Of a stretch of 64,000 nucleotides of DNA, positions 3,001 through 48,926 are shown one piece after another; within the stretch, counting starts at the first letter, position 1; each line of letters begins with the position of its first letter. The DNA comes from Rickettsiales bacterium. Its GTDB lineage: Bacteria; Pseudomonadota; Alphaproteobacteria; G027485855. Both the position numbers and the translations under genes were made by a program. Under the pieces are notes generated by a model, which did no database searches, was not told where the DNA came from, and saw nothing but the letters and a program-made list of their open reading frames with translations. Location: the NCBI GenBank assembly GCA_027485855.1, contig JAIXQD010000021.1:186001-250000 (forward strand). Reading direction: 5' to 3'.

Positions 3001-3130
3001 CAGCACCAAACTCGGCGCGATAACTCTAGCCGATTGTGTAATCGTGCCAGTGGTGTCGATACGCAGCAGGCTGGCAGTAATGCCGTTTGTGCCATCCACC
3101 GTGTTAATATCAAATACGCCATTCAGGCGC
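1..3130 (-). repeat. Coding tandem repeats of about 210-237 bp in the adhesin gene
   Basis: The plus-strand text tcgcggaagcgcac and close variants (complement of the codons for VRFRDD) recurs near 62, 508, 717, 932, 1152, 1600, 1816, 2248, 2698 and 2914. Weaker versions lie near 290, 1384, 2028, 2485 and 3124. The spacing is about 209-237 bp, always a whole number of codons. About 15 units are visible and the array may continue past base 1. Confidence 0.85.
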
Positions 3131-6100: not shown

Positions 6101-6453
6101 ACACCCTGCGGATTGAGGAGATACAAACTACCTGTGGCACTTAAACGGCCATCAAGCCGCGAAGCATCGCCGCCCAATACGCGGTTAAGCGTGGCGCCAT
6201 TAGCATTATCAAAATGCACGCTGCCGCTTTGGCCAATGCTAAAACTATCCCAGTTGATAATGCCTGCGGCCGTGCTTTGCTGCACCAGCATGGCATTTGC
6301 GTCCACACTGATGCTGCCCGTGCCTGCCGCAAAACTTCCGCCGCTCGGCAATTCTGTCGCATCAGCTTGGCTGATAAATATGATACACGCACTGGCCAGT
6401 AACAACGAGCGCAGCGGCGAAGAATAGAAAGGTCGGAAGGCGGCAAGAGACAT
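1..6453 (-). CDS. Giant filamentous-haemagglutinin-like two-partner-secretion adhesin (TpsA), 3' end beyond the window
   Basis: An uninterrupted minus-strand frame of 2151 codons runs from the ATG at 6451-6453 to base 1 with no stop. Frame was checked at several points along its length. The N-terminus has a signal peptide (hydrophobic LRSLLLASACIIFIS, then QADA). A TPS/haemagglutinin N-terminal domain follows, with INWDSFSIG, the family motif LLNPQGVLIG, and GGDFIAST. Such proteins are secreted through a TpsB outer-membrane pore and fold as a long beta-helix; no TpsB gene is in the window. Residues from about 1100 onward (bases 1-3130) are built of roughly 70-79-residue repeats marked by GTVRFRDD and by ITAPELALLG-like segments. 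The middle is Gly/Ser/Thr/Asn-rich. A surface adhesin is the likely role. The C-terminal part cannot be seen. Open frames on either strand inside this interval are shadows. Confidence 0.9.
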   Translation of the reverse strand, partial: MSLAAFRPFYSSPLRSLLLASACIIFISQADATELPSGGSFAAGTGSISVDANAMLVQQSTAAGIINWDSFSIGQSGSVHFDNANGATLNRVLGGDASRLDGRLSATGSLYLLNPQGVLIGAEGRVHTGGDFIASTKNITDTDFLNGGAIQLSGNSAASVRNSGTIEAAHGSIYLLAREVENTGRISAPKGDATLAAGNGFTLQDTQVGGLKVEPRADGRVSNSGSIEAVRAELNAAGGNVFALGNNQQGVVRATGVEQRQGEVWLTGRNIQNSGTIAANNANGSGGTVTLQAEGRIDHTGKIAVSGANNKGGEARLLGEQIAIYNGGAVDASGATGGGDIFVGGDRMGGRAPAQRLRQQENIPNAKAVFVGSTASLRSDATNNGNGGHVIIWSDDATRFYGSASAQGGAQGGNGGFIETSGGWIDINPASISTAAPLGRVGEWLLDPTNIEITAATDSYTPSPDFPDLIPTSAGTAQVSVGTIRAALITSDVSISTAAAGAGAGNITWLAGANLDIDTLSSRTLQLRAHNNITIDGAIIDSDTGTGDGLNIILDADSDSSGGGQSNIRTTFNTFGGSFESIGDITLEADINTTRTGTSGSIFFSNDVLLRNIGGITLTSGASDITFGGLLNSADSSNISSLILDTTGTAFFGRSVGNTQILDSVDFGSASTISIDGEQFIVNNSLSFGNPVFLPASNDLSIQVRGANQELLFQGNITKRDGTAQTVSFEAAGYITITQGVTVSSLGGALNLNLRADRDGVGGGGVVIGGSVTPTTIDTSTGTFVVGGGTGSLFSAGWAEGDASNAGIYMRNTTVITDTGAISLRGRGAQSGAFALSGIYLQDSSFSTNSNIFMTGVGGTGTTSAAEATGIWLSGTSLTTTTGTIALEGTGGINGNGNNNNTDLQAGVRLQNNALIEATGNGTININGIAGSGGVTGTVELPGGTGNVGFLCYTTNCGTVRTPSGGGSARINADSMALNDGSYRSAVFTLAPITTENTHTIRIGSAADTTANSLEISAAELAGFTTTGTLRIGSISYSNPIQFSGTLAPTGIATLSVFTGTDTGADITSVASSSLSGITNFAVRGRSIDLSNLSISTTNLAASSTGTVRLNGVFDINTVDGTNGITASLLRIDTTGTITQSARVIAPSLVLSGVGGVFDLNTQNNVITTLAADTGIVRFRDDGGYTIGALDGVVGITTTGATRLVSTGTVSQNRVITAPELALLGVGGIFNLNSNNNAIDLLAASAGTVRFRDDNGYQINSADGLNDIDVSQLLRLQSDGAVTTGVGFGILAPELLLTGTDGDFILSAAFVTLAANARTVDIANPIAIPAAIGTVDGVDGVTATGNVALFTSGTISQSQPIIAQGLELGGMGTFANDGTFNLNTQNNDINSLAATVETLQFRDDNGFDVGTVGSTDGIITTALTHLVSSGIVTNNFGITAPGLLLTGANGVFILTYSNNSVGTVAANTGTLYFRANDGFDVGSVSGTNGITASTALGLVSIGTVTQTQIVSAPELALVGVGGVFNLNSSNNAISTLAADAGTVRFRDDSGFAIGSVDGVDGIKVTGVARLVSAGTVTQSRIITAPELALLGTDGIFSLNSQNNDVAVLAADTATVRFRNDDNYSLGTADGVVGMTTTSLLRLHSTAIVTQVDDITTNGLLLTGAGGTFNLNVANVDVATLAADTDIIRIRKTAASVLDIGTVDGVSGITTVSRTNLISSDTVTQSQAIISSRLLLAGLATGEGTFNLHTQNNDVNQFATDVATVRFRDDNGFALDDLGAAEGIDAAVLAHLITSGTVTRTFGAVNTPSLVLAGVDGIYNFADSSVTITNLAANTGTVRLRDDDGFMVTTVDGVEGVTASSVAAFDTTSLVMQDAAINAGNLLLTGATGIYNLNTSDNNVGTLAASADYLRFRDDTGFDIGTVDTVNGITATTVVRLLSSGTVTQTQSIITPELAMLGTDGVFSLNSVSNSVDFIAASTGTVRFRRDNNYEVSTADGFAGITTSGITRLETAGTVTQTQPLTTDGLVLGGAGGAFNLTNLEFNTLAADTAAFTIENLNLGATEIGTVDGVSGVTVTGAIAFGASGTVTQSQAVVANSLALYALGGAGTFSLHTQNNNTNTLAANVVTLRFRDDDGFTIDDIGPYDMDATTLI

Positions 6454-21355: not shown

Positions 21356-21500
21356 AAATAAAAAGCCATAAATCCGGCTTGCAACTATTAAAATACTAGA
21401 GAGCATGCACTGCAATACGTTATGGTATTTGCATAGAGGTCATATGACCAAAATTATTTAATAAAAAGACATATTTGCAATCTAAATCAGGGATATAGAG

Positions 21501-24500
21501 ATGAATCAGGATCAAGATAAACTGAACATCACTCTTAACTATCGCAAAGGCGGCGTCATTGAAGCCCAAAAATTTGCGGCCACTAACCCGCTTTTAGTCA
21601 GCTATAACGCTGGCATAGAGCAGGATAATAATAGCAAGCGCACATTTATCTCGCTGGCCTCGCTTTTGGCCAACAGCATCAGCGCTGATAGCAGCTATAT
21701 TACCCGCAGCATTGAAACGGCAGGTGGCGATATTGCCATCTTGCGCCGCACACTTGAAGCCATCAATGCCAACATTCCGCCTGCCAAAAGCGGGCAAGCC
21801 CTTGATGAGGGCTGTCACGCACCAATTTTTTTAGCCGCACAAGCCGCCGCCGAAAAAATGGGCGATGAGTTTGTCAATACCGACCATCTTATTCTGGCAC
21901 TGCTCAATGGCGTTGAGGCCGAGCACCCAACTGCTGTTAATCACGCGGCACAGCTGAGTGCGGCTTTAAGCAATGCCGGCCTTACTGCTCAATCCTACAA
22001 AAAAAGCGTGCTTGATTTACGTCGCGGGGCGCGCATTAAAACACAATTTGACGGCGAAAATTTTGGCACGCTTGGCCTTTATACCAAGCTGATTGCCGCA
22101 GCAGGTCAAGAGCGCACGCCCTTTATGAACCGCAGCGAAGAAATGCGCCGCATTGAAAAGCAAATTGCTAAAACTGAGGGTAATTCGGTTTGGCTGACGG
22201 GCGAGTTTGGCGTTGGCAAAACTGCACTGGTTGAAGCTTTTGCCGCACGCTTAGCCGATGGCCAAACCCCGCGCCAACTGGCAGGGCGCAAGCTGCTTAA
22301 GCTTGACCTCAGCCGCTTTATTGCCGGCGCTGGCAATGAGCTAGATACACGCTTTAAGGCGCTGTGCGATGAAGCCGAAGCCGATGGCGATAAAATTCTT
22401 TATATCGACGAAATTGAGCGCCTGTTGCTTGATAATGGTTCGGTGCGCGCCAGCTTAGCCATTATTTTAAACGATGTGGTCAGCCGTGGGCAGTTACCCA
22501 TTATTGCCACCTCAGACGGTGGTCGCGCCGAAGTTTTAAGCACGGCTGACCAAAGCCTGTTCAAAAAATTTGAGCGTATTCGTTTGCAAGAGCCAAGCGA
22601 CGATTTAGCCCGCGAGATGCTTTATGCTCACCGCGACAGCATTGCTGCACGTCACGGCGTTGAGATTGAAGACGAGGCTATTGCCCGCGTTATCAAACAA
22701 ACCAAGCGCTATCAGTCGGATGAAAAATTCCCCAAAAAAGCCATTGATGCGCTTGATGAGGCCGCGAGCCTTGTGGCCATCCGTGCCGAGCGCCCCGAAG
22801 TGCTGACCAGCAAAGATGAGCAGCTCATTCTTATGGTGGCCGAGCTCGACAGCTTGAAAAACAAAAGCGATGATGCCAGTGCGCAGCGTCAAAAAATACT
22901 GCAAGAGCAATTTGATAAGCTGGAAGATGAGCTCACTGCGCTCGAACAGCAGTGGGAAAATGAGCAAAGCCTGCGCATGGCTGTCGAAACCGCTCGCAGC
23001 AGCTTGCAGCAATCAGAAAATAAATTGCAGCAACTGAAGCAAGAGCGCGAGCAGCTTGGCCAAGGCCAGCAAGTGCTGCAAGCGGCAAATGCCAATGGCG
23101 ACAATCATCAAGTGGCCGCGCCCGTCAGCAAAGACATTGTGGAAAAGCGCCAGCGCATCGAAGCCGACATCAAGCGCGCTGAAATGCGTGATTTACCCGC
23201 CCAACGCACTGCGCTGAGCGAAGCTGAAAAAAATCTGGCCGCACTTGGCGATAATCGCTTGGCGCAATTAGTGGTAACGCCAAAAGATATTGACCAGGCC
23301 TTAACGGTAGCAACCGGTATCCCCATTGGTCAGGGCGATGATGAAGCCAAATATGCGCCAGGCGCTATTGAAGCCGCACTTGAAAAACGCGTGGTGGGCC
23401 AAAAGAAAGCTGTCAGCATTGTGGCCGAAGGTATTCGTCGTGCTAAAAAGGGCCTTAATGATGCAGGCAAGCCGCTGCTGGTGGTGTTTTTTGCCGGCCC
23501 CTCGGGCGTTGGTAAAACCGAATTAGCCAAAGCCACCGCCGAGTTTGAATTTGGCGGCGAAGATCGGGTTATTCGTTATGATATGGGCGAATATACCGAG
23601 CCACACACAGTCTCGACCTTGTTGGGCGCCCCTCCTGGCTATCAAGGCAGCGAGCAAGGCGGCAAGCTGGTCAATGACATCAATAATGCGCCCTACTCGG
23701 TGCTGTTATTCGATGAAATTGAAAAAGCGCACCCCAGTCTGTTTCCTATTTTGCTCAAGCTGCTCGATGAAGGCAAAGTCACTGACCGTCAGCACAACAC
23801 CGCTGATGCGCGTAACTGCATTATCGTCATGACCTCGAATGTGGGTAAGGAATATTTCGAGCAATTTAAAAATGGCAGTATTAAAACGCCGGAAGAGCTT
23901 AATCGTTTGGTCAAAGAAGCCTATAATGAGCGCTTCCCCGTTGAATTGCGTGGCCGTATTAGCTCGGGCTTCACCATCTTTAATTCGCTCGACCCCAAAG
24001 TGACGCGGATGATTATCCCCATTCAAACACGCAAGCTGAATAAGCTGATGGATGAGCGCCAAGTGAAAGTGGCCCTCACCCCCAGCGCCGAAGATTGGTT
24101 GGCCAAATATGGCTACGACCCCAATTTGGGCGCCCGTCCGCTGAATAATTTGTATCGGGATATTATTGTCAATGGCGTAGCCAAGCTGGTCACCGATGGC
24201 ATGCTGCTGCCCGGTCAAGATGTGAGCGTGGATGTGCAACCACAAAAAGTGACAGTGCAAAGCCACATCACCTCGGCCGAGGAGATCATGAAAATTGTTG
24301 ATGGTCTGGACGAGTTCAAACCCACCATTCAAGAGCTGCAAGAGCAATTACAAAAACTTTGCAGCAAATTAAGCTATGCTGAATTGACACAAGATAACCC
24401 GCCCGTAGAAGAGATGCACGAAATTGAAGTGCCATGGCCTACGCTTAAAGTGAGTGACCGCTTGCGTCCGGCGCCCGCAATTAACATTGCCAACGCTAAA

Positions 24501-24584
24501 GCCGATATTACCGGCCAAGGCAACAAAGGGCCAGAACGCCCCACAACGGCGCCCATCACAAGCAACGCCGCCACTTTAGGCTAA
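21501..24584 (+). CDS. Divergent ClpB-like double AAA+ ATPase (first of a tandem pair)
   Basis: A 1027-residue protein. The N-terminal Clp-type helical domain (about 40-180) includes FVNTDHLILALL. D1 has Walker A GEFGVGKTAL (about 233-242) and Walker B ILYIDEIERLLLD. A long coiled-coil middle region spans about 440-600. D2 has Walker A GPSGVGKTEL (about 665), Walker B LLFDEIEKAHP, sensor MTSNVG and GARPLNN. A C-terminal extension of about 100 residues is unlike ClpB. D2 keeps the aromatic pore loop (GYQG) and an Arg in the finger position (LRGRIS). In D1 the ClpB KYRG pore loop is replaced by AGAGNELDTRF, and the Arg-finger pair by KKF. It is probably an ATP-driven remodelling machine with an altered D1. 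It is not canonical ClpB and not obviously TssH. Twelve bases separate it from its paralogue. Confidence 0.85.
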   Translation: MNQDQDKLNITLNYRKGGVIEAQKFAATNPLLVSYNAGIEQDNNSKRTFISLASLLANSISADSSYITRSIETAGGDIAILRRTLEAINANIPPAKSGQALDEGCHAPIFLAAQAAAEKMGDEFVNTDHLILALLNGVEAEHPTAVNHAAQLSAALSNAGLTAQSYKKSVLDLRRGARIKTQFDGENFGTLGLYTKLIAAAGQERTPFMNRSEEMRRIEKQIAKTEGNSVWLTGEFGVGKTALVEAFAARLADGQTPRQLAGRKLLKLDLSRFIAGAGNELDTRFKALCDEAEADGDKILYIDEIERLLLDNGSVRASLAIILNDVVSRGQLPIIATSDGGRAEVLSTADQSLFKKFERIRLQEPSDDLAREMLYAHRDSIAARHGVEIEDEAIARVIKQTKRYQSDEKFPKKAIDALDEAASLVAIRAERPEVLTSKDEQLILMVAELDSLKNKSDDASAQRQKILQEQFDKLEDELTALEQQWENEQSLRMAVETARSSLQQSENKLQQLKQEREQLGQGQQVLQAANANGDNHQVAAPVSKDIVEKRQRIEADIKRAEMRDLPAQRTALSEAEKNLAALGDNRLAQLVVTPKDIDQALTVATGIPIGQGDDEAKYAPGAIEAALEKRVVGQKKAVSIVAEGIRRAKKGLNDAGKPLLVVFFAGPSGVGKTELAKATAEFEFGGEDRVIRYDMGEYTEPHTVSTLLGAPPGYQGSEQGGKLVNDINNAPYSVLLFDEIEKAHPSLFPILLKLLDEGKVTDRQHNTADARNCIIVMTSNVGKEYFEQFKNGSIKTPEELNRLVKEAYNERFPVELRGRISSGFTIFNSLDPKVTRMIIPIQTRKLNKLMDERQVKVALTPSAEDWLAKYGYDPNLGARPLNNLYRDIIVNGVAKLVTDGMLLPGQDVSVDVQPQKVTVQSHITSAEEIMKIVDGLDEFKPTIQELQEQLQKLCSKLSYAELTQDNPPVEEMHEIEVPWPTLKVSDRLRPAPAINIANAKADITGQGNKGPERPTTAPITSNAATLG

Positions 24585-24596
24585 GGGAGCGACAAA

Positions 24597-27500
24597 ATGA
24601 ACCAAGGTCAAGAACCAACTTTTGATGTGCTGCTCAACGACCGCAGCACTAATGTGCCCAGCAAATATGGGGTGAATATGACGAGCGCTTTGCAGCGCTA
24701 TTATAACAGCGGTCTTGAGCAAGATGCTCAATCTGCACCAGGCACACAAGGCAAAGATTATAGCAACCTTGCTTCTATTTTATTGGCCGCGCTCGCCAGC
24801 GAAGAATCTTATATCTCGCGCGCAATCAGCAAAGCGGGCGGTGACCGCACCGTGCTTGTACGTGGCCTGCAGCAAGTTTGGCAAGATATCCCCAAGAGCG
24901 CCGATGGTATCGTCAAGGATTTAGGCTATCTTGCGCCAATTTTTGCTGGTGCAGATAATGTACGCTTAACCATGGGTGATAAATTTCATAATACCGATCA
25001 TCTGGTAGCTGCCCTGCTGCAAGGCGAATATCAGCCAAGCTCAACGGCAATGACTGCGCATTATACCAAGCTGCAAGAGGCTTTTGCCAATGCCGGTATT
25101 GATGCCGATATTTGGCAAAAAACTATCGAAGAAATGCGCCATGGTGCACGCATTGGCAGCCGCATGGATGGTGAGCTATTTGATAGTCTTGGTCTTTATA
25201 CCAATGACATGGCCATACTGGCCGTCGAAAAGCCAGAGCCGGTATTTTTAGGCCGCCGCGCCGAGATTGACCGTATCGAAGCACAATTAGCCAAAGCGCA
25301 AGGCAACTCGGCTTGGCTGACGGGTGATTTTGGGGTGGGCAAAACCGCCATTGCCGAAGCCGTGGCCGATCGGATCAGCCTTGAAGAATCTCGCGCCGAA
25401 TTGCGCGGTCGCGTGGTGCTGCGTCTTAATATGAGCAAGCTGATTACCGGACAAGCCGGTGACCCTGCCGACAGATTGCGCGCCATTTGTGACGAAGCTG
25501 CGCGCGATGGCAATAAAATCCTGCTGATTGATGAAGTAGAGCGCCTGCTGCTTGATAATGGCGCTATTCGTGCCAATGTGGCCGTGGTGCTCAATGATGT
25601 GCTCAGTGCGGGCCGCTTGCCCATGCTGCTCACCTCGGATGGCGGGCGGGCTGATGCGCTTTACAGCAATGATGCCAGCCTCTTTGATAAACTAGCGCGC
25701 ATTGATGTGCGCGAACCCAGCGCTGAACTTGCCACCGAAATGCTTTATGCCCACCGTGAGCGCATTGAGCAGCTTTATGGCGTAACCATCACCGACGAAG
25801 CCCTGCAACGGGCCGTGGCGCAAACACAAAAATACCAAGCCGATAAGCGCCTACCCAAAAAAGCCGTTGATGCGCTAGAAGCCGCAGCCAGCCAAGTGGC
25901 GCTTGAAAAAGAGCGCCCCGCGCAATTAGTCAAGCTCGCACAAACCCAAGAGAACATCGAAGCCGAGCTGCGTCGTTTAAATGTGCGGCAAGATGCCGCG
26001 GCTCTACAGCGCAAAGCCGAGCTCACCCAGCAACAAGCCGAAGCCGTGAACAGCGAAGCCGAGCTAGAAGCCAAATGGGAGCAAGAGCTTGAAATTTATA
26101 AAGCCGTGCAGCGCGCCCAAGAAAATATTGTGGCAGCAGAAGACAAGCAATATGAGCTGCGCACGCAAATAGAGCAGTTGGCCGGCGCACAACAACAAAT
26201 GCAGCTGGTAACGGATGGCAGCGAAAGCAAAACTATCAGCACCGCTGCGCCCAGCCTTGCAACCCAGCAGCGCGAATTAAAAACCCAGCTCAAAACGCTT
26301 GAGCGCAAATTGCCGCAATTGCAGCAGCAGCTCGAACAGGCGCAAAAAGCCGCCGCCGACTATGCCCCACATCGCTTGGTTGATGGCACAGTCAATGCGG
26401 TGGATATTGATGAAGCTATCGAGCGCAGCACCGGCATTCGTATTAAACCCGAAGAGACCGATAAATTTGCCAAAGGCAAAATTGAAGCGGCCTTGCGCCA
26501 GCGTGTTGTGGGCCAAGATAAAGCCATTGCCATTGTGGCGGGCGCGGTGCGTCGTGCCGCCATGGGCTTACGCAAAAATGGCAAAACCTTAGGCGTGTTC
26601 TTTTTTGCGGGCCCGTCGGGCGTTGGCAAAACCGAGCTGAGCTTGGCTTTGGCCGAGTTTCTTGGTTACAACATGCTGCGCTATAATATGAATAACTTCA
26701 CCCAAGCGCACACGGTGGCAACCTTGCTGGGCTCGCCCCACGGCTATGAAGGCGGCGGTGGCCCCTTGGTGCGCGACATTAAACAGAACCCTAATTCGGT
26801 TATTCTGCTGGATGAATATGAAAAAGCGCATGCTGATTTCAGCAAAATATTGATGGACCTGTTTGATACCGGCCGCACCACCGATAACCGCAACAACAGC
26901 GCTGACGCCAGCAACTGCTATATCGTCATGACTTCAAACATTGGCGAAGATTACTTCCGCGACTATCGCGATGGCGTGATTAAAACCGAAGCCGAATTGC
27001 TTGATGAAGTCAAACGCGCCTATGAAGAAAAATTCCCAGCGTCGTTCCAAGGGCGCGTTGAGAATTTTATTATCTTTAATAATCTTGACCCTGCGGTCAC
27101 GCGCGAAGTTGTGCCGCTGCAGCTGCGCAAACTCAACGAGCAGTTCAAAGATAATAAGCTCGACATCACCATGGACGCCGCAACCTCGGCCTGGCTGGCC
27201 GAACATGGCTATGACCCACATAAAGGCGTGCGCCCCTTACAAAACTTGTTTGATAAAGTGGTGGCCAATGGCGTGAATGATTTATTCATGGATGGCGATT
27301 TATTGCCCGGCCAGCAAGTGAGCATTACGCTGCAACCGCAGACAGTGCAAATTCAAACACACGCCAGCGCCGAAGATGTTGATGCACGCATTTTCAGCCA
27401 TAAGATTTTTTACCCAACGCTGGCGCAAGCCGAAGCTGAGTTGCAAAAACACTTCAGCAATTTAAGCGATGCCGATAAGAGCCGTGGTGCTGCGCCAGAG

Positions 27501-27659
27501 GCGATGCATAGCGTAGAAGTCATGTGGCCAAGCTTTACAATTACCGACAAATTAGCCGCAGTGCCCGCTATTGAGCTTGGCACACAAGAAGAAGGGCCCG
27601 TACGTCGGCCCAAAGCTGCGGCTGCTGGTGGCAAGCCCGCACCACTAGCCAATAGCTAA
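24597..27659 (+). CDS. Divergent ClpB-like double AAA+ ATPase (second of a tandem pair)
   Basis: A 1020-residue paralogue of the preceding gene with the same order of parts. The Clp-type N domain has FHNTDHLVAALL. D1 Walker A GDFGVGKTAI is near residue 241, with Walker B ILLIDEVERLLLD. A coiled-coil middle region is followed by D2 Walker A GPSGVGKTEL near 670, Walker B ILLDEYEKAHA, and GVRPLQN. The same C-terminal extension is present (EVMWPSF here, EVPWPTL in the first gene). D1 lacks KYRG (ITGQAGDPADRL) and the Arg-finger pair (DKL). D2 keeps GYEG and a finger Arg (FQGRVE). The ATG follows GGGAGCGACAAA. The shared tail and tight operon suggest the two act together, perhaps as a mixed ring. 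Confidence 0.85.
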   Translation: MNQGQEPTFDVLLNDRSTNVPSKYGVNMTSALQRYYNSGLEQDAQSAPGTQGKDYSNLASILLAALASEESYISRAISKAGGDRTVLVRGLQQVWQDIPKSADGIVKDLGYLAPIFAGADNVRLTMGDKFHNTDHLVAALLQGEYQPSSTAMTAHYTKLQEAFANAGIDADIWQKTIEEMRHGARIGSRMDGELFDSLGLYTNDMAILAVEKPEPVFLGRRAEIDRIEAQLAKAQGNSAWLTGDFGVGKTAIAEAVADRISLEESRAELRGRVVLRLNMSKLITGQAGDPADRLRAICDEAARDGNKILLIDEVERLLLDNGAIRANVAVVLNDVLSAGRLPMLLTSDGGRADALYSNDASLFDKLARIDVREPSAELATEMLYAHRERIEQLYGVTITDEALQRAVAQTQKYQADKRLPKKAVDALEAAASQVALEKERPAQLVKLAQTQENIEAELRRLNVRQDAAALQRKAELTQQQAEAVNSEAELEAKWEQELEIYKAVQRAQENIVAAEDKQYELRTQIEQLAGAQQQMQLVTDGSESKTISTAAPSLATQQRELKTQLKTLERKLPQLQQQLEQAQKAAADYAPHRLVDGTVNAVDIDEAIERSTGIRIKPEETDKFAKGKIEAALRQRVVGQDKAIAIVAGAVRRAAMGLRKNGKTLGVFFFAGPSGVGKTELSLALAEFLGYNMLRYNMNNFTQAHTVATLLGSPHGYEGGGGPLVRDIKQNPNSVILLDEYEKAHADFSKILMDLFDTGRTTDNRNNSADASNCYIVMTSNIGEDYFRDYRDGVIKTEAELLDEVKRAYEEKFPASFQGRVENFIIFNNLDPAVTREVVPLQLRKLNEQFKDNKLDITMDAATSAWLAEHGYDPHKGVRPLQNLFDKVVANGVNDLFMDGDLLPGQQVSITLQPQTVQIQTHASAEDVDARIFSHKIFYPTLAQAEAELQKHFSNLSDADKSRGAAPEAMHSVEVMWPSFTITDKLAAVPAIELGTQEEGPVRRPKAAAAGGKPAPLANS

Positions 27660-28013
27660 GGCCACGCGTTACAGCCAATGATTAATATTTTTTGGTAATA
27701 TAATTACCAAATTAATAGGTATTAATAGCGCGTGCAGACCAACGAATAAATTTATTTATAAATACATTGTAAAAGCCAAAAAATTATTTTCAACCTGTGG
27801 CAAGGCCGCAATACACACTAAGCCATTGATAAAAAACAACAACAAAACAATATTGGGCTAAATACACCTATCTTTTGCTGTGTAATATTGGCAACATCGG
27901 CCAAAATTCGCCATAAAATTACCTAAAAACACCATTTCGCTTAGCAATAGATTTACCATTATGACCGCATTATGACCTTACCGAGCCACCCATTTTAACG
28001 AAGGTTTACGCCC
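27660..28013. other. AT-rich intergenic region with a palindrome (354 bp)
   Basis: No gene is seen. TTTGGTAAT-ATA-ATTACCAAA (27691-27711) is a perfect 9-bp inverted repeat about 30 bases after the ATPase stop. It has no following T run and could be an operator or a weak terminator. The remainder is AT-rich and is the probable promoter region of the small gene at 28014. Confidence 0.5.
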
Positions 28014-30525: not shown

Positions 30526-30673
30526 ATGCCCTATATTTGCGGCTTATCCTTCTCCCTGCAGCATAAAAAACGAATAGATAAAATACCCGATAAATCCGGC
30601 AAAAATGTCGGCATTTGTTCAAAAATCTTTAAAGCTATCTCGCTAATATATGAGCTCTGACGACGGAGCCCGA

Positions 30674-33103
30674 ATGAGCACAAACGACGCACTTTCAGCC
30701 TTTATGATTATCGATGAAAGCGCTGTGCCGCCCGACCATGCCAGCGCCGATAGCAATCAGCTTGATTATATAGCCTCCACTATTGCTATGCCAAGTTACA
30801 GCTATGCGGCGGTCAATGTAAGCGCAGCCTTTCCGCATAATTATAATTACAGCGCACAAATTCAAGCAGCAGCACCCATTATCAGCACGCATTATGATAG
30901 CAGCACGCCGCTATATAATGTCGCCAGCGCAAGCGCAACTACAGCTGATACCCCCGCGCTTTTTGCAACCTCGATGAATCTTGGCCCCGCACGCATCAGC
31001 TTCACTGATAATTTTTTTAGTCAGCAATATCATTTTTCAGCAAGCTCAGTTGCCGACACACGCGCGGCCGCCGCTTGGACACAATATACCGGCCGCAACA
31101 TACGCGTGGCTGTGGTTGATGATGGCTTTGATTATCAGCACCGTGATTTAAGTCTTAACTATAACCAAAACATCGACCGCGATTTTCGCGACAATGATAT
31201 GGATGCGCTTTATCGCACACAAACAGGTGATGCGCATGGCACCGCAGTGATGTCAGTCATCGGCGCTGATAATAACGGCACAGGCATGGTGGGCGTTGCG
31301 CCAGATGCAACATTGGTGGGTATTCGTGTTGGCTTTGGCAGTAGTGGGGTGACGACCTTTGGTGCTGCGCTGGCCTATGGCAGCAATTACGATGTGATCA
31401 ATAATAGCTGGGGTTATACATCAGCATTTATTGATAATTTTCAAATGAGCTATATGGCCTCACTGCGCGATGCCATGGTTAATGGCATGAATAATGGTCG
31501 CGGCGGGCTTGGCTCGATTTTTGTTTTTAGTGCGGGCAATAGCCGCAGCTCTGGTGATGCCACCACCTATCATGGCACCACAAATTTTATTGGCACTATT
31601 ACGGTTGGCGCCGTTGATAGCAATGGGCGGGTTGGTGTTTTTAGCACACCAGGCGAGTCTGTTCTGGTATCAGCCGCTGGTGTTGGTGTAATCGCCGCAG
31701 ATAACACCATAGGTGGCTATAACAGTGGTGAATATGGAACGATAAGTGGAACATCTTTTTCGGCACCCGTTGTGTCTGGCGTTGTGGCACTGATGCTGGA
31801 AGCCAATAGTCGTTTAGGCTTTCGTGATGTGCAGGAGATTTTAGCCCTGTCCTCGCGTCAAACCGATAGCAGCAATAGCAGCTGGCGATTTAATGGTGCC
31901 GATAATTGGAATGGTGGCGGCATGCATTTTAGCCGCGATTATGGCTTTGGCGTGGTCGATGCTCATGCTGCTGTGCGCCTGGCTGAAGGTTGGAACACCT
32001 CGCGCACTGCGGCAAACATGCAAATGGCCAGCGGCACGGCTAACCCTAATCTTTTTGCGCCTGACAATAATAGCACAGGCGTGAGCTCAAGCATCAACTT
32101 AACCGGCACAAATTTACAGCTCGATAAAGTTATGGTTGATGTACGCCTTGCTAGCAGCACGGGGCAGATGGGCGATGTACGACTAAACCTTATTTCGCCC
32201 GATGGCACAGTGAGCACACTTATCGACCGTGTTAATAATGGGAGCTTTATGTCAAGCTCGTTTAGCTTTAATCTGAGCAGCAATGCATTTTGGGGCGAAG
32301 ATAGCAACGGCACTTGGCGTTTACAGTTGGTGGATACTGCCACAAATGTTGGCCGCACTACTTTGCAAAGCTGGACGTTACGCGCCTATGGCGATGCCAT
32401 TGGCAATGACGATACTTACTATTACACCAATGAATTTACCACAGCCACGGGGGCGCGCAGAACTCTTATCGATACTGATGGCGGCCTCAATAGCATTAAT
32501 ACCGCTGCGGTTGATGGTACTGTTGTGCTGGCAATGGCCGCGGGCAGCACAGGCTCAAACATCGCTGGGCGCAGCCTTACTATTGGCGCCAGCACCAACA
32601 TTCATAATGCCGTGACTGGCTCGGGCAATGACTATATTTATGGCAACGGGCTGAACAATGCCATTCGTGGCGGCGCCGGCGATGATCTTATGCAAGGGCG
32701 CGGCGGCAATGATACGCTGGTTGGTGGTGCGGGTGGTGACACACTGAATGGCGGCGATGGTAATGACGTCTTGATTGGTGGCCTTGGCGCGGACATGATT
32801 ATTACCGGCATTGGCACAGATATTGTGACTTACAACAGCATGTCAGATGCAGGTGACACCATTACCGATTTTACCGTTGGCACTGACCGGCTAAATTTTG
32901 TTTCGCTGTTTACCAGCCTTGGCTACAGCGGCAGCAACCCCTTAGCTGATAGTCTGTTGCGGATAACTTATAATAGCTCGGCCAATACAACCATCTTGGC
33001 GATTGATAGCGACCGCACTGGCCCACAAGCCGCCGTAACATTGGCAACCTTGCAAAACACCAGCGCCACACTTGTAGCCACGCGCGATTATTATTGGGTT
33101 TAA
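30674..33103 (+). CDS. RTX-type secreted subtilisin-like serine protease with P domain
   Basis: An 809-residue protein with no Sec signal peptide. After about 130 N-terminal residues comes an S8 peptidase with the full triad: Asp in VAVVDDGFDY (about 149), His in DAHGTAVMSV (about 186), Ser in GTISGTSFSAPVVSG (about 360). NNSWG and SAGNS supply the oxyanion-hole Asn region. A proprotein-convertase P domain (about 475-580) includes GDVRLNLISPDGTVSTLI. C-terminal RTX nonapeptides (GGAGDDLMQGRGGNDTLVGG and following, about 655-710) and a hydrophobic ending DYYWV suit type I secretion. The ABC and fusion proteins follow directly. I prefer ATG 30674 (GGAG six bases before); an in-frame ATG at 30650 has no ribosome binding site. 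Calcium-dependent folding outside the cell is the family behaviour. Confidence 0.9.
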   Translation: MSTNDALSAFMIIDESAVPPDHASADSNQLDYIASTIAMPSYSYAAVNVSAAFPHNYNYSAQIQAAAPIISTHYDSSTPLYNVASASATTADTPALFATSMNLGPARISFTDNFFSQQYHFSASSVADTRAAAAWTQYTGRNIRVAVVDDGFDYQHRDLSLNYNQNIDRDFRDNDMDALYRTQTGDAHGTAVMSVIGADNNGTGMVGVAPDATLVGIRVGFGSSGVTTFGAALAYGSNYDVINNSWGYTSAFIDNFQMSYMASLRDAMVNGMNNGRGGLGSIFVFSAGNSRSSGDATTYHGTTNFIGTITVGAVDSNGRVGVFSTPGESVLVSAAGVGVIAADNTIGGYNSGEYGTISGTSFSAPVVSGVVALMLEANSRLGFRDVQEILALSSRQTDSSNSSWRFNGADNWNGGGMHFSRDYGFGVVDAHAAVRLAEGWNTSRTAANMQMASGTANPNLFAPDNNSTGVSSSINLTGTNLQLDKVMVDVRLASSTGQMGDVRLNLISPDGTVSTLIDRVNNGSFMSSSFSFNLSSNAFWGEDSNGTWRLQLVDTATNVGRTTLQSWTLRAYGDAIGNDDTYYYTNEFTTATGARRTLIDTDGGLNSINTAAVDGTVVLAMAAGSTGSNIAGRSLTIGASTNIHNAVTGSGNDYIYGNGLNNAIRGGAGDDLMQGRGGNDTLVGGAGGDTLNGGDGNDVLIGGLGADMIITGIGTDIVTYNSMSDAGDTITDFTVGTDRLNFVSLFTSLGYSGSNPLADSLLRITYNSSANTTILAIDSDRTGPQAAVTLATLQNTSATLVATRDYYWV

Positions 33104-33162
33104 GTTTGTTTCGCTCATGCAGCTATAATCTAATTTTAACAGGCTGCTGCTAAGTTTAATCG

Positions 33163-34863
33163 ATGTTAGTCACCCCCCTTGCCACAGCGCGACAAGCCGT
33201 GAAGCAACAGCTATGGCTGTTAGCGGCCTTTAGCTTTGGCATAAATATTTTGCTGTTTGTGCTGCCGCTTTATTCGCTACAGATTTATGACCGCGTGCTG
33301 ACAAGTGGCAGCCTGCCTACTTTAGCCACACTCACGGCGCTAGCCATATTCTTGCTCATCGTGATGTCGTGGCTTGATGGCTTGCGGCAAAATATGCTCA
33401 CCGCTTTAGGCAATTGGCTAGAGCTGACGCTGGGCGCTGCGGTGATGCGGGCAGCCATAAATGCGGCGCTGCTCACGCGCTCGACCACAACCGCACAAGC
33501 CACTTTCGATTTACGGGCTTTACGTAACTTCATCGCCAGCCCCGCAATGCCCGCTTTGTTTGATTATCCATTTGTGCCGATTTTTTTGATATTTTTATGG
33601 TGGGTGCATCCTTGGTGCGGCATTTTTGCGATTATTGTTGGTGCGGCGATGTTACTGCTGACCATACAAAGCGAAAACGCCGTACGCGATATGGTAGAAA
33701 AAAGCAATCTGGCCTCAGCCGAGCTGCAACTACAATCGGAAGTGATTTTGCGCAGTGCCGATGCCTTGCGCGGCATGGGCATGATTGGCAAAGCCGTCAG
33801 CCTTTGGCAAAAACGTAACGAGCATTTAGTGCATTTAAGCGGCACTATGGCCGACCGCAGCGCAACTTTGGCAGCGCTGAGTAAATTTATTCGTTTATTT
33901 GGCCAGCTGGGCATTATGGGCCTCACCGCATGGCTGGTGGTGCGGCAAGAGGTTACGCCCGGCGCCATTATTGCCGTGTCTATTTTATTTGGACGCATTT
34001 TATTGCCCGTTGAGCAAACCATTGGCGGCTGGCGGGCGCTTGTGGCCGCGCGCTTAGGTGCAAAACGACTAGAGCTGCTTTTACAAAAATTTCCATCCGC
34101 ACAAAAAGGCATGGCACTGCCAGCACCACAAGGCGCGCTTGAGGCAACGCAACTGGGCTTTCGCCTGCCGCATAGCCTTGAGCCAATAATTCAGAATGTA
34201 AATATCAAAATTGCTGCGGGCGAAACCTTGGCCATTATTGGCCCCACGGCGGCAGGCAAATCTACGTTAGCGCGCCTGCTTTTGGGTATTTGGCAACCCA
34301 CAACCGGCACAGTGCGTTTAGATGGCACCCCTGTTGAAAACTGGCACACTAATGAACAAGCGGCCGATTTTTTTGGCTATTTGCCGCAGGATATTCAGCT
34401 ACTCAGTGGCACAGTGCGCGACAATATTGCCCGCAGTGATGCACATACCGATGCCGATGTGCTGGCCGCCGCAAAGCTGGCCGGCATTCATGAAATGATA
34501 ATGCAGCTACCGCGTGCCTATGATACCGAAATTGGCGAGGGCGGGGCTAATTTATCGGGCGGGCAAAGGCAGCGCTTGGCATTGGCGCGGGCAATTATCG
34601 GCACGCCAAAGTTGGTAATTTTAGATGAGCCCAATGCCAATCTTGATGCCGAGGGCGAGGCCAGCTTGGCCCAAGCCATTGCGCATTTAAAAGCGCAAGG
34701 CGTGACAATTTTGCTGGTCATTCATCGCACGCAATTGCTGCACTATGCCGAGCGTATCGCCTTTATGCGGCAAGGGCGGTTAGAGCTGCTCGGCCCCCGA
34801 GAAGAAGTTTTGGCCCAACTACGTGGCACAAAAAAAATTGATACGCAGGGCGCGCCGCCATGA
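33163..34863 (+). CDS. Type I secretion ABC transporter, permease-ATPase (PrtD class)
   Basis: A 566-residue protein. An N-terminal six-helix membrane domain (about 15-290) has the YSLQIYDRVLTSGSLPTL signature of PrtD/HlyB-type exporters. The nucleotide-binding domain has Walker A GPTAAGKST, signature LSGGQRQRLALARAI, Walker B LVILDEP and a His switch (LLVIHR). There is no N-terminal C39 or C39-like domain, as in PrtD/AprD. It energises export of the adjacent RTX protease through the inner membrane. Its stop overlaps the fusion-protein start (ATGA). Confidence 0.9.
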   Translation: MLVTPLATARQAVKQQLWLLAAFSFGINILLFVLPLYSLQIYDRVLTSGSLPTLATLTALAIFLLIVMSWLDGLRQNMLTALGNWLELTLGAAVMRAAINAALLTRSTTTAQATFDLRALRNFIASPAMPALFDYPFVPIFLIFLWWVHPWCGIFAIIVGAAMLLLTIQSENAVRDMVEKSNLASAELQLQSEVILRSADALRGMGMIGKAVSLWQKRNEHLVHLSGTMADRSATLAALSKFIRLFGQLGIMGLTAWLVVRQEVTPGAIIAVSILFGRILLPVEQTIGGWRALVAARLGAKRLELLLQKFPSAQKGMALPAPQGALEATQLGFRLPHSLEPIIQNVNIKIAAGETLAIIGPTAAGKSTLARLLLGIWQPTTGTVRLDGTPVENWHTNEQAADFFGYLPQDIQLLSGTVRDNIARSDAHTDADVLAAAKLAGIHEMIMQLPRAYDTEIGEGGANLSGGQRQRLALARAIIGTPKLVILDEPNANLDAEGEASLAQAIAHLKAQGVTILLVIHRTQLLHYAERIAFMRQGRLELLGPREEVLAQLRGTKKIDTQGAPP

Positions 34864-36182
34864 ACTTGCCAGAAACTACGCCCAACCAAAGTGCCGCGCT
34901 GCAATTGCAAAAAATTCGGCGGCAGGCATTTTTAGGTTTAGTCATTGGGCTTTTTAGCTTGGTGATTTTTCTGCTATGGGCCGCTTTTATGCCACTAGCC
35001 AGCGCCATTGTGGCGCAGGGGCGGCTGATTGTTGAAAGTGGCGCGCAGCAAATTCAGCATTTAGAGGGCGGCATTGTGCGCGAAATATTGGTCACCCGTG
35101 GGCAACATGTTGATGCGGGTCAGGTGCTGCTGCGCCTCGACCAATTACAAGCGGGTGCGTCACTCAGCGCCATTCAAAGCCAGCTTGCCGCGAGCCTTGC
35201 CGAACAAACGCGGCTAGAGGCCGAGCGCAGGGCACAAAATGAGTTGGCCGAACCAAAAAATACCGAAGAGCTGCCGCAAGAAATATGGCAACAAGCATGG
35301 GCAGGACAAAAAGCCCTGTGGCAAAGCCGCCGCGATGTGCGCGAAGGGCGCCTGGCTGTTATGCAACAAAGACGCGCCCAGTTAGCACAAGAAGCCGAAG
35401 GGCTAAACATGCAATTGCAAGCGCTGCAACAACAACGCCAGCTGATTGGCGATGAGATTGTCGATGCCAAACAGCTTTATGAAAAGGGCTATGAGCGCTT
35501 GCCACGCGTGCGTGCGCTTGAGCGTGCTGCCGCCGATCTTGATGGGCGCATTGGCCAGCTTGTTGCCGAGCAAGCCAAAAATCAACACGCCCTCACCGAG
35601 TTAGAATTGCAGCAGCAAGGGCTAGAAAATGAATGGCAAAATGCCATTGCCACCGAGATGCGCACCACCGAGCAAAAATTGGCCGAGTTACGGCAAAGGC
35701 GCAAAAGCGCCAGCGACATTGTGGCGCGTGCCGAGCTGGTTGCACCCGTGGCTGGGGTGATTAGCGATATTATTCCCTATGGCGCGGGCGCTGTGATTGC
35801 TGCAGGCAGCCCGCTTATGACCCTCGTACCCGAGCAAGAAATAATGCTGATTGAAGTGATGGTGCGCCCCGATGATATTGAATCAGTTTCGCCGCAAATG
35901 CCGGCGCGCATCAGGCTATCGGCCTTCAACCAAAAGCGCGTGCCAGAAATTGATGGCACAGTAATGTTTGTAGCGTCCGACCTCAGCACCGACCCCATGA
36001 CCGGTCAAAAATATTTTAAAGCGCGAGTAGCCCCTGATAGCAAAGCATTAACCGCGTTACAGTTACGGCTGGTGCCGGGCATGCCTGCCGAAGCTTTGAT
36101 TATTACCGGTAGCCGCACGCTGCTAAATTATTTACTAAGCCCGCTTAGTGATGGGCTGCGTCACGCGCTACGCGAGGGCTAA
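34860..36182 (+). CDS. Type I secretion membrane fusion protein (HlyD/PrtE family)
   Basis: A 440-residue protein with one N-terminal transmembrane helix (about 27-47). A split biotinyl-lipoyl domain (AQGRLIVESGAQQIQHLEGG then IVREILVTRGQHVDAGQVLL) and a long alpha-helical hairpin (about 120-290, Gln/Ala/Leu-rich coiled coil) follow. The second lipoyl half and beta barrel come next (ELVAPVAGVISDIIPYGAGA), then VVPGMPAEALIITGSRTLL near the end. It links the ABC protein to an outer-membrane channel. No TolC-type channel gene is in the window, so it presumably uses one from elsewhere. Its 3' end overlaps the convergent epimerase gene by 38 bases. Confidence 0.9.
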   Translation: MNLPETTPNQSAALQLQKIRRQAFLGLVIGLFSLVIFLLWAAFMPLASAIVAQGRLIVESGAQQIQHLEGGIVREILVTRGQHVDAGQVLLRLDQLQAGASLSAIQSQLAASLAEQTRLEAERRAQNELAEPKNTEELPQEIWQQAWAGQKALWQSRRDVREGRLAVMQQRRAQLAQEAEGLNMQLQALQQQRQLIGDEIVDAKQLYEKGYERLPRVRALERAAADLDGRIGQLVAEQAKNQHALTELELQQQGLENEWQNAIATEMRTTEQKLAELRQRRKSASDIVARAELVAPVAGVISDIIPYGAGAVIAAGSPLMTLVPEQEIMLIEVMVRPDDIESVSPQMPARIRLSAFNQKRVPEIDGTVMFVASDLSTDPMTGQKYFKARVAPDSKALTALQLRLVPGMPAEALIITGSRTLLNYLLSPLSDGLRHALREG

Positions 36183-41603: not shown

Positions 41604-42605
41604 TTAACGCAGCCTTTTATGCGTCGCCAAAAGTGGCCCGCCATTAAGCAGGCGTGCATGTTGCTGATCAATATAGGTGGCCAGCTGCCCTATGCGGCGC
41701 TCACGGATGGTATTGCGAAACGCATCGCCAAGGTTATTGGGCTCGGTAATAAAAGATTTTGCCATAAGCTGTTCTTCAAGCAAATTTTGGTGAATAACCG
41801 CCGTTAGCCCCATGGCTAAGGCCGCCGACGCGCGACTGCCAACCGCCTGCTCTGACAAATGCAGCATGCCCTCAAGCGATTCTTCAATCGAGCCGCCATG
41901 AACCGTGGTTATAACCAAATGCCCCGTTGTGGCCGCACGCAAAACTTGCGCTGCGGCATCTGGCGTGCGGATTTCGCCCACAAAAATATAGCGCGGGCTC
42001 CAACGCAAGCTACGCTTCAGCATCGTCGCCCATTCATGATCTTCGCTAATCTCAACTTGGTAGCAAAAACCATTGCTGGCATGCCGCCCTTCAAGATTAA
42101 ACTCAACCGGATCTTCAACCGTAAAAGCCACATTGCCATAACGCTGCAAATAATCGCAAAGTAAGGCACAAGCCGTGGTGGTTTTGCCGTGACCCGTTGG
42201 CCCCGCAATAATAATCAGCCCATCGCGCACACCAAGCTGCTGCAAATGTGGCAACAAGGCGGGGTCAAAACCCAAATCTTCTAGGGCGGGGGGGCGCTCT
42301 GGGATGCGCCGCAGCACCACCCACTCTTTGCCGCTGGCCATGATAATGCGTGAGCAACGCATGCGCATCGTGTCGTATTCTAAGGTCGACTCAGCCCCGC
42401 TATGCTCGGTTTGTAGGCGCAGGCGGATTTTTTCAACGTCTAATTGATATTCGCTCGGCACCTCTCTGTTGCCGCCTTCGCGGCGCTCACGCCCCCGTGG
42501 ACGGTAATGCGCGGCCTCTTCATCATCGAGGCGTATATATAAATCGGTAAAATTGAGCTCAGATAAAGGGGTATGCTGTGGGGTATGCTGTCGTTTTTCT
42601 GCCAT
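41604..42605 (-). CDS. dotB: DotB-like type IVB secretion ATPase
   Basis: A 333-residue PilT/VirB11-superfamily hexameric ATPase: N-terminal domain (about 15-110), Walker A GPTGHGKTTTA, Asp box VEDPVEFNLEGRH, Walker B YIFVGEIRTPDAAAQVLRA and His box LVITTVHGGS. The order and spacing match DotB of Dot/Icm systems (Legionella DotB is somewhat longer, about 377). DotB powers the type IVB channel from the cytoplasm. Neighbouring DotA-, IcmC-, IcmD- and IcmJ-like genes support that reading over a type IV pilus PilT. The 3' end is convergent with the CDF gene. Confidence 0.85.
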   Translation of the reverse strand: MAEKRQHTPQHTPLSELNFTDLYIRLDDEEAAHYRPRGRERREGGNREVPSEYQLDVEKIRLRLQTEHSGAESTLEYDTMRMRCSRIIMASGKEWVVLRRIPERPPALEDLGFDPALLPHLQQLGVRDGLIIIAGPTGHGKTTTACALLCDYLQRYGNVAFTVEDPVEFNLEGRHASNGFCYQVEISEDHEWATMLKRSLRWSPRYIFVGEIRTPDAAAQVLRAATTGHLVITTVHGGSIEESLEGMLHLSEQAVGSRASAALAMGLTAVIHQNLLEEQLMAKSFITEPNNLGDAFRNTIRERRIGQLATYIDQQHARLLNGGPLLATHKRLR

Positions 42606-42734
42606 AGTGCGATACCCTCTTTTGAAAAAATTCAGACTTTATCAACTAAAGCGGTTTAGCATAAAAGTGATAAATATTCCGTCAATGCTGGGCAAGGTCA
42701 ATTGACCCCGTCCGGCAAAATCCTCGAGGGGGGA

Positions 42735-42911
42735 ATGCTGATGGGTTTAAGCTTAACTACTGCCGGCTTTACCGCAACCCATATCGGGTCATCGGCCACG
42801 CCCGCGCGCAAAGCGGTTGAAACACCTGCAGCAGAAAACACCACGCCCGCCGCGCCACAACAACCTTCTGGCTATTGGCGGCGCACCGGCGGCTTAAACA
42901 TTAGTATCTAA
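42735..42911 (+). CDS. Small exported or membrane-attached protein, unknown
   Basis: A 58-residue protein: MLMGLSLTTAGFTATHIGSS, then an Ala/Pro/Thr-rich middle and YWRRTGGLNISI. The start is ATG 42735 behind GAGGGGGGA; a TTG at 42702 is in frame but weaker. It lies between dotB (divergent) and the 3' end of dotA (convergent, 6 bases apart). Function is unknown; the good ribosome binding site is the main argument that it is real. Confidence 0.45.
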   Translation: MLMGLSLTTAGFTATHIGSSATPARKAVETPAAENTTPAAPQQPSGYWRRTGGLNISI

Positions 42912-42917
42912 TTTATA

Positions 42918-45900
42918 TTATCTTTCACGTTCATCGCGACCGCGCCCGCCGATATCTGGCGGCACATGACGCTGATTAGAAAGATCGGCCGCTTGCTTTG
43001 CAGCATCACTGGCTCTATCTGCTTCACGGCCAGAGCGCTCAGCGCCACGCTCAGCTCTGCCGGCATCTTCACGCGTAGAGTCTGTCGATACATTGGGGTT
43101 GCTCGGAGTGCCCGCGCCCGCTGGCGAGGGCGTGCCCAAGCCACCCGTGCCGCCACCCGTGCCACCGCTGCCACCACCACCTGTGCCGCCCCCCATCAAA
43201 CCCATCGCAGCGCCGCCAGCGCCACCACCACCGGTGCCACCGCCACCGCCGCCAGTGGTGGGCATATCGGGGCTATCATTATTATTTGGGCCCCTGTTAT
43301 TTGGTCCGCCGCCAGAGCCAGGTGGGGCATTACCGCCGCCAAAGCCAAGCATGGCCGGCACCGAGCGCCCCAAGCTGCTGACATCATTAATGGCCCCAGG
43401 CAGAGCCTTGGTGACAGCACCCAACTGACCACCCAACGTATTGGCATACATAACGCCAGCAACGCTGTTGATATCATGCTGCGGGGCAATACTCTTGAGA
43501 CTTTCGCCGCCAATCCACTTCATCGCGGCATCGGGAATGACCTCAATCATATCAAGGCATTTCAACACCAGCCAGTAGCCGATAAATAAATAGAAGATCG
43601 AGTAAATAAAGCGCGTCAGCACATTGGTGTTAACGCCCGCTATGTGGCTATCCAAAACCACTGTTTCGTAAAACATGGTGAGAAAGCTCAGCACGGTATT
43701 GGCCGCTAAAATGGCTACCACCAAGCCCAAAATAGTCATGATGGGGCGCACAAAAGTCGAGAAAATCAGAAAATAGCCGCGCCGCGCATAATCACCCGGA
43801 ATGCCACCGCCTTTGGGGTTGATATGCGCCAAGGCCAATAATGGCAAGCACACAACCGCCTCCATCACATTGACCACCCAGCTTAAAATACCAAAAATAA
43901 ATTTGATAAAAGGCAGCAAGGGCAGCAAAAAGCCGACCAAGAGCGACGCGGTTAAACCGACAATAATGATAAACCACAAGATAGATTTAACGAGGTTTTT
44001 AATCCCATCTGGCATAGAGGCCAATGCCGTGCTGGCCAGCGCCAACCCAACACCCTGACGCACCGACACATCTTCAGACACTGCGCCAAGCCCAACAAAG
44101 CCCGCCCAGCGCGCCCAAAAATTAACGTCCGCACCCGCAGCAATGGCCATAAGGTTGATTGACCAATAAAATTTCTCCATGCCGATTTGCACAAATGAGC
44201 CAAACGCATCACCCGAGGAGAGCGTTAGCACATTGCTGTAAAAACTATTCTCTAGCCATGCGCCAATACCGCCCGCTGTTGCACCAGGGGCGCCGGGCGC
44301 TGTGGCATTAGCCAGCTCTTTTTGCCAAAGGCCGGTTTTCATATCGTTTGTCGAGAGCGCCGTCACCACCGCTTGCATAGGGTCGCTCGGTGTTTCAGTT
44401 TCGCCGCGATCGGCAGGGTTGATGCCACTTGGCGCATCAACATTGATAAAATTAAGACTGCTAATCACCGTTTTGGCAATGTCGGCCGCGGCATAACCAT
44501 CGCCGACGAGTTGTGCCGTATCAGCGGGCTGCGGCGCGATATTGACCACTTGCGTGAGCAAATTTTGCCGGCGCGATAAAATGTTAAAATAAGCACCTGC
44601 CTCAACCCAGCCTAGTTTTTTGTCACTATTCACCAACTGGTCTTCCGATACTGTGCCTTGTGCCGTGGCAAGCGGCTCAAAGTAAGTGCGGGCACGCAAA
44701 GCAATTTCGCGGTGATAGTCATCAATCAGCTGATAAAAATTAGTGGCCAAGCTTGCCGGCGGGCGCTGTCCGGCATTAGCAGAGTCGCTGGCAGGGTGGA
44801 AATAACTTGCCACAGTGGCACCGGCTTGAAACGCCTGCTGCAAATATTGACTGGATGAGGCTTGCTGTATCGCATTAAAGCCGCGCAGGGTTTGCGCCAG
44901 TGTGTCATTGCCTGCACCTGCTGTGCTGATGTTATTCATCATCACCCGACCACAAATTGGCTGCGCGCCCTGCTCACGCACAACATAGGGCATAATCAGT
45001 GGCACCTGACCGGTATTGTCGGAGGCCAGACCCGGCGGCAACTGACTTAAGCCCAGTTGATAAAGCTGCGGCGGCTCTATACCCGTCACTTGTGATTGAT
45101 AAATGTGTGATTGATAACAAACGCCAATACGATAGGCCGCCAAAAATGCCTCGCTCGAGCGCGGAATAGACGGCATGCTGATTTGTGTGGTTTGGTTACT
45201 GGCGGTGGTGAATTTATCCCAAGCATAGCTGGCAAAACCCGAGCCCCACTCGGCCACTTTTAAAATAACATACTGCCCCGAATTCAGCCCGCTGGTCATT
45301 GGCACTAAAAGGCCAATCGCCACAACCAGACGCAGCGGCCCCCAAATTTGATCGGCTTCGCCAAAGGGTTTGCCCTTATGGGCGGTTTCAGCAATCATCA
45401 CCACAAGATGATAAAGCAAAATAGCCGAGCCAATCACCAACATGCCAACGCTAAATGTGCGCAGCAATTCTTTGAGCGCTAACTGAATGGCATTACCAAA
45501 CATGCCCAAATCATCGATGCGGGCAAATTCTGGACTAAGCGCAAATAAATGTGACAACCAGCGCGAGCCACCATCTGTGGGGGCAGGCGTAAACATATCC
45601 GGTGAGGCGGGCGGGGTTTGCGCTTGCGCACTGCCTGCTAAAATAGAGGTTATCAATAAAACAAACACCAGCATAAAGCCCAAGCAAAGTGCGGTTAAAA
45701 TACCTAAAGCCAAAAGCGGAAAAATCTGCTCATGGGTTTTGGGCGTAAAGCGCCAACCATCGAGCAGCACACCGAATAAACGTAACTGCGCTGTAGGACG
45801 GCTTTCTAAATAATCTTTTGGCAAAGCCCGAAAAGAAATCAGCACCAAAGCTAAGTTCAGCACCAGCATTTGCCAGGCTTCAAGAAAGCTGCGCACCGAA

Positions 45901-45989: not shown

Positions 45990-46079
45990 GCAATATCCTA
46001 ATCTTTGTGCAAATGGCTATACATCAAAGGACGAATGTTAACAAAACGGTATTAGTTGCACAATACTACTGTCATTTAA

Positions 46080-46865: not shown

Positions 46866-47000
46866 GATTTTAAATCGCGGCTTGTTTGCTGCAAATTGTT
46901 GTGCATAATTAATAAACTATTCAGCACCACATGTTGAAATGGATAAAGGGCAACATATAATTGCCCCAAATATCCGATAGATTTTATTTATAGACAATGA

Positions 47001-47987: not shown

Positions 47988-48084
47988 CTTATAAGTGTAA
48001 ATTCTGTGGACGAAAATAAAGATTCTATTTATCATTGTGTTTTAGTATAAGTTTCTGAAATAAGCTTTTGGACGGAGGGATCCT

Positions 48085-48468: not shown

Positions 48469-48519
48469 AGCTTAAAAAAAACCATCATCCATTTATTATA
48501 ACCATAGGGAGACATACCA

Positions 48520-48894: not shown

Positions 48895-48926
48895 ATTTTA
48901 ATGCCTAAACCAAGCAGATTTTAGCT

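Follow-up and report, generated by a model that had tools for sequence, protein, structure and literature searches.

The DNA analysed here is a window of 64,000 nucleotides from a Rickettsiales bacterium (assembly GCA_027485855.1, contig JAIXQD010000021.1, positions 186,001 to 250,000). On its forward strand lie two adjacent genes for ClpB-like double-AAA+ proteins with an altered first ATPase ring (D1): P1 (21501..24584), encoding 1027 amino acids (aa), and its tandem paralogue P2 (24597..27659), encoding 1020 aa. Both open reading frames (ORFs) are intact; the proteins are 44% identical over their length, the ORFs are separated by 12 nucleotides, and the junction contains GGGAG, a sequence resembling a ribosome-binding site. 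According to alignment, Pfam and motif analysis, P1 and P2 have the N-D1-M-D2 domain order of ClpB, followed by a common C-terminal extension. The Pfam domains AAA, AAA_lid_9 (the D1 lid), AAA_2 and ClpB_D2-small were recognized in both, and the match to Clp_N was weak.

The D1 core of P1 (22086..22595, forward strand; aa 196–365) contains the Walker A motif GEFGVGKT and the Walker B motif IDEIER, and that of P2 (25206..25724, forward strand; approximately aa 204–376) contains GDFGVGKT and IDEVER, with K212/T213 and D278/E279 retained in both (these residues, and those named below, are numbered as in E. coli ClpB). The Tyr-Arg of the KYRG-type pore loop (Y251-R252) is gone from both proteins by a two-residue deletion, leaving AGAG--NELDTRF in P1 and TGQA--GDPADRL in P2, and the trans-acting arginine pair R331/R332 of the RRF motif is replaced by K/K in P1 (KKF) and by D/K in P2 (DKL). 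The original prediction, which had been made from the sequence of this stretch and which held that D1 keeps its Walker motifs and lacks the pore loop and the arginine pair, is borne out on these points. Two further changes common to both copies had escaped it: sensor 1, T315, is Asp (the alignment is ungapped here), and the invariant histidine after Walker B, H281, is Glu. The RRF motif is retained in all 32 other Hsp100 proteins aligned (ClpA, ClpB, ClpC, ClpK, ClpL, ClpV and others) and the pore motif in 31 of the 32, the exception being a Staphylococcus plasmid Clp that retains the arginine pair; the D1 changes of P1 and P2 are therefore not due to chance.

The second ring (D2) is complete. 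In P1, D2 and the small domain (23271..24230, forward strand; aa 591–910) have an intact GYQG pore loop, sensor 1, arginine finger and sensor 2, and all of these elements are present in P2 as well, where the pore loop reads GYEG; K611, Y653, D677/E678, N719, R756 and R815 are retained in both proteins. The predicted second Walker pair, Tyr pore loop and finger arginine were thus found as described. The [IL]G[FL] loop for ClpP binding has no counterpart in D2, with NGSI and DGVI at that place, so that the pair probably releases its clients instead of degrading them.

The M domain consists of approximately 150 aa between D1 and D2 and forms a long coiled coil, helical in the structure models of both proteins. 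The motif Trp is retained, and E432 and Y503 are replaced, which may suggest, as far as sequence can tell, that control by the M domain differs from that in ClpB. The C-terminal extension of P1 (24231..24581, forward strand; aa 911–1027) carries a WP motif, and that of P2 (27324..27656, forward strand) has a matching one; the two are 39% identical across 911–995, WP motif included, in agreement with the matching tail that had been proposed. No second copy of the extension was found elsewhere in the genome, and it has no Pfam domain and no significant relative in the PDB (best E 0.23). Both models place a beta hairpin at 907–922, helices at about 925–935 and 942–960 and a strand at about 970–975, a fold to be taken only as a hint, since most of the extension was modelled with a predicted local distance difference test (pLDDT) value below 60; in P1 the predicted confidence is low after residue 929. 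Overall, confidence in the single-chain models is medium (pLDDT 74 and 72, predicted template modelling score 0.41 and 0.47 for P1 and P2). The predicted fold of P1 resembles ClpC, ClpB and Hsp104, and the PDB chains closest to P1 and P2 by sequence are those of ClpB and Hsp104.

By score, none of the named Clp subfamilies accommodates the pair. The best-scoring NCBIfam model was ClpB (TIGR03346), with 505 bits for P1 and 420 bits for P2 against an equivalog cut-off of 1232, and the ClpV/TssH model (TIGR03345) gave 402 and 350 bits against a cut-off of 885; the ClpV, ClpA, ClpK and ClpG models all scored lower than ClpB and under their cut-offs. No named subfamily with the same D1 changes was found, and P1 and P2 form a clade of their own. 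The earlier description of the pair as unlike ClpB, ClpA or TssH consequently stands insofar as P1 and P2 reach less than half of the cut-offs and group apart, but it was too strong with regard to ClpB, because P1 and P2 resemble ClpB in domain order, in the long M-type coiled coil and in D2, and ClpB proteins are their nearest relatives by score.

D1 is normally the more conserved of the two rings. Between P1 and P2, the identity is 51.2% in the D1 core and 53.5% in the D2 core, whereas the D1 cores of P1 and P2 share only 34.1% and 30.8% identity with the ClpB of the same genome, and the D2 cores approximately 40%; for scale, this ClpB is 80.7% identical to E. coli ClpB in the D1 core and 71.6% in the D2 core. 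As D1 is about as similar between the copies as D2 but far more distant from ClpB, it evolved rapidly until the duplication and has been under constraint from then on. The D1 losses common to P1 and P2 most simply predate the duplication as well, apart from whether K or D stands at R331. The most diverged parts of the two proteins are the N-domains (40% identity) and the M-domain coiled coils (26%).

In the phylogenetic tree, P1 and P2 group as sisters with full support, and their common stem measures approximately 4 substitutions per site. The unconstrained tree draws the pair beside ClpV, and the program flags meeting long branches there; this placement is likely a case of long-branch attraction. 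Forcing the pair together with alphaproteobacterial ClpB costs 4 log-likelihood units (p 0.36 in the approximately unbiased (AU) test), and with a branch of this length the AU tests rejected none of ClpB, ClpA, ClpC, ClpK and ClpL as sister group. We favour a ClpB-like ancestor, judging from the domain layout and the model scores.

Searches with the full pair or with an N-D1 profile revealed no orthologue in three overlapping sets of 96, 385 and 386 alphaproteobacterial genomes or in approximately 400 genomes of Pseudomonadota. The best outside matches to the N-D1 profile had E values of about 1e-58, compared with 1e-284 or better for the pair itself, and were like ordinary ClpB in length and coverage. 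The best matches in five relatives (G018, G054, G032, G030 and G088) looked long but turned out on inspection to be normal ClpB, and that in G026 was a ClpV-like protein. A peptide-pattern scan of the contigs of 85,000 species, IMG/VR, phages and plasmids returned known Clps (ClpB, ClpV, ClpK, ClpL, ClpC) or nothing; the pattern was narrow, and relatives may exist. Models of defence systems matched only generic AAA regions.

Our tentative explanation of these features is that a single dedicated Hsp100-type remodeller is built from P1 and P2 as its two subunits, with a silent D1 collar and a D2 motor, probably arranged in a mixed ring. Judged on their sequences, both proteins lack the defining D1 features of ClpB that were tested and should not be filed as ClpB; they are a variant of the Hsp100 kind that probably works by the D2 threading principle of ClpB. 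As the sequences show, a probably ClpB-like ancestor lost the D1 pore loop, arginine fingers and sensor 1, with Walker A and B kept, acquired the C-terminal extension and was then duplicated in tandem, both copies remaining under constraint since. In the NBD1-M of Thermus ClpB, replacement of either D1 arginine by alanine lowers hydrolysis approximately 1000-fold and spares nucleotide binding, and nucleotide-induced oligomerisation is impaired (PMC4239642); in E. coli ClpB, threading is driven mainly by the AAA2 ring (PMC6593972). These observations suggest that D1 of P1 and P2 most likely holds ATP without firing and that D2 pulls. D1 would then serve as a nucleotide-holding, rigid assembly collar and as a platform for a client or adaptor, and D2 would hydrolyse ATP and pull the client by its Tyr pore loops, with no handover to ClpP. 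Without the arginine pair, which in ClpB links oligomerisation to ATP binding, assembly must depend on some other contact, and the C-terminal extension is a candidate, because that of Hsp104 is critical for hexamerisation (PMC3887210). Ring assembly is therefore probably carried by D2 together with the new extension, most likely in a mixed P1/P2 hexamer. Such a mixed assembly, which the original prediction had also suggested, fits the adjacency of the genes, their 12-nucleotide spacing, the equal length of the proteins and their common novelties, none of which amounts to proof. A literature search on hetero-oligomers of Hsp100 proteins yielded nothing directly relevant.

Several points weigh against this explanation. 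The complex and its client are both postulated, a search for complementary charges on P1 and P2 came out negative, and the structure models are of single chains and of medium quality. Among the genomes searched, the pair occurs in one only, so that co-occurrence and co-variation have no second case. In addition, the Lys at R332, together with the nearby conserved R316, R342 and R359, could supply a displaced trans-acting residue, and D1 might still hydrolyse ATP.

The explanation that survives best beside it is that P1 and P2 each form their own homo-oligomeric remodeller, with a similarly altered D1 and different clients, their tandem arrangement reflecting duplication and co-expression. This is a real possibility, which we rate somewhat below a mixed ring. 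Nearly all common novelties predate the duplication, so the ancestor must have worked as the oligomer of a single gene, and the strongest divergence, in the M-domain coiled coils and N-domains, is where it would be expected with different clients. However, the copies have remained next to each other, are of equal length and have diverged to a similar degree in D1 and in D2, and no other genome shows one copy without the other.

It is unlikely that D1 is still an active ATPase with a finger Arg or Lys at a shifted position and changed pore contacts, which would make the pair a ClpB variant with a retuned first ring. The intact Walker A and B motifs, the Lys at the R332 position in both proteins and the conservation in both of R359, three residues further on, would agree with this, but sensor 1 is Asp in both copies, the pore loop is shortened, and the roughly 1000-fold loss of hydrolysis with Ala at either arginine of Thermus ClpB NBD1 (PMC4239642) argues against it.

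The surroundings of the pair are as follows. Upstream of P1 lies the GMP reductase gene guaC, and approximately 50 bp 5' of P1 is the perfect palindrome GGTCATATGACC (21438..21449), the sole copy in the genome; it is possibly an operator, and chance is also conceivable. Directly after the P2 stop codon, the forward strand can form a stable RNA hairpin (27660..27741, z = -3.1), which may mark the transcript's 3' end. Beyond a gap of 1 kb come an RNA helicase gene and a type I secretion cluster that includes an S8 protease; in this cluster (30650–36182), an S8 subtilase with a P-domain and RTX repeats is encoded beside a type I secretion ATPase and an HlyD adaptor of its own. Further downstream (41604–49670) are type IVB genes (Dot/Icm or IncI-like) for a PilT/TraJ/DotB-type ATPase, DotA/TraY, TraX-like and TraQ-like proteins and IcmJ/DotN; ATPases related to that of the cluster are also encoded elsewhere in the genome. 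Within the cluster, two adjacent genes (48085–48468 and 48520–48894) encode near-identical small proteins of 127 and 124 aa with signal-like starts, which are a recent tandem duplication and which we would guess to be IcmD/DotP- or TraR-like. Literature searches on type IVB systems in Alphaproteobacteria yielded nothing directly relevant. At the other end of the window, positions 1–6453 hold a very large minus-strand ORF, truncated by the window edge, which has a signal-like start and a length of at least 2151 aa.

The host genome is a 2.37-Mb alphaproteobacterial draft, 97.8% complete with an estimated contamination of 9.5%. It also encodes ordinary ClpB, ClpA, ClpX- and HslU-type proteins, and housekeeping is thus covered. 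A third unusual double-AAA Clp of 1122 aa, with canonical D1 motifs (L009, 6901–10269; contig C9, 308900–312268), has a 440-aa N-terminal region without a match in the 288 other alphaproteobacteria searched, and its gene is convergent with an HSP70-like gene of 771 aa.

With the two secretion systems on the same contig and within about 22 kb, the pair might be a remodeller for one of them (type I, 30.6–36.2 kb, or type IVB, 41.6–49.7 kb), as ClpV is for type VI secretion, and the position beside ClpV in the unconstrained tree points the same way. We regard this as improbable: the pair is not in the same operon as either, with the 1-kb gap and the RNA helicase gene in between, the tree program marks the placement beside ClpV as possible long-branch attraction, D1 is no more identical to ClpV than to ClpB, and the parts inspected showed no type VI genes. 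That P1 and P2 are degenerating or wrongly assembled duplicates in a metagenome bin, as the draft state and estimated contamination might suggest, is largely refuted and very improbable, because both frames are intact, neither copy is decaying, D1 is as conserved as D2 between the copies, D2 is complete, and the GC and third-position GC (GC3) of P1 and P2 are those of the neighbouring genes.

It has long been asked why double-ring unfoldases have kept both ATPase rings and what role the first one has, a question usually attacked with point mutants. In the case of P1 and P2, nature appears to have stripped grip, fingers and sensor from the first ring of an Hsp100 protein, with the nucleotide site kept and the altered form conserved across a duplication. 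If the two proteins co-assemble, direct tests of a nucleotide-holding collar atop a one-ring motor would become possible.

Among known systems, ClpB/Hsp104 is the most similar, with the same order of N, D1, long M-type coiled coil, D2 and small domain, the best NCBIfam and PDB matches, the same D2 catalytic set and the Tyr pore loop. P1 and P2 differ from it in the D1 pore-loop Tyr-Arg, arginine pair and sensor 1, in the M-domain residues E432 and Y503, and in their C-terminal extension of approximately 115 aa; their D1 is 31–34% identical to that of the genome's own ClpB, itself 81% identical to E. coli ClpB in this domain. ClpV/TssH adjoins the pair in the trees, and its D1 pore loop is divergent too (VRG/VKG), but ClpV keeps the D1 arginine pair and sensor 1, and the neighbours of P1 and P2 are guaC, the RNA helicase, type I secretion and type IVB genes rather than a type VI locus. 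ClpK, ClpL, ClpC and ClpA are likewise Hsp100 double-ring proteins, but every sampled member keeps the D1 arginine pair and sensor 1, and in ClpA and ClpC ClpP loops are present and the M domain is short or absent. The Clp of a Staphylococcus epidermidis plasmid (L093, 142–2799) likewise has no D1 KYRG pore loop, but it keeps the arginine pair and sensor 1, is encoded by a single gene and belongs to an unrelated branch. In functional terms, P1 and P2 may represent convergence with the eukaryotic peroxisomal proteins Pex1/Pex6, two paralogous double-AAA+ proteins whose D1 is able to bind nucleotide and, as in P1 and P2, has no Arg fingers, with D2 as the motor; these form a heterohexamer in which the D1 ring is nucleotide-bound and catalytically dead and D2 is active (PMC5447069; PMC10518020). 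Pex1 and Pex6 are classical AAA proteins of the Cdc48 type and not Hsp100 proteins, and the mixed hexamer is proven there and only inferred for P1 and P2. If P1 and P2 do co-assemble, they would be an Hsp100-based bacterial parallel to Pex1/Pex6, which would be new for bacteria.

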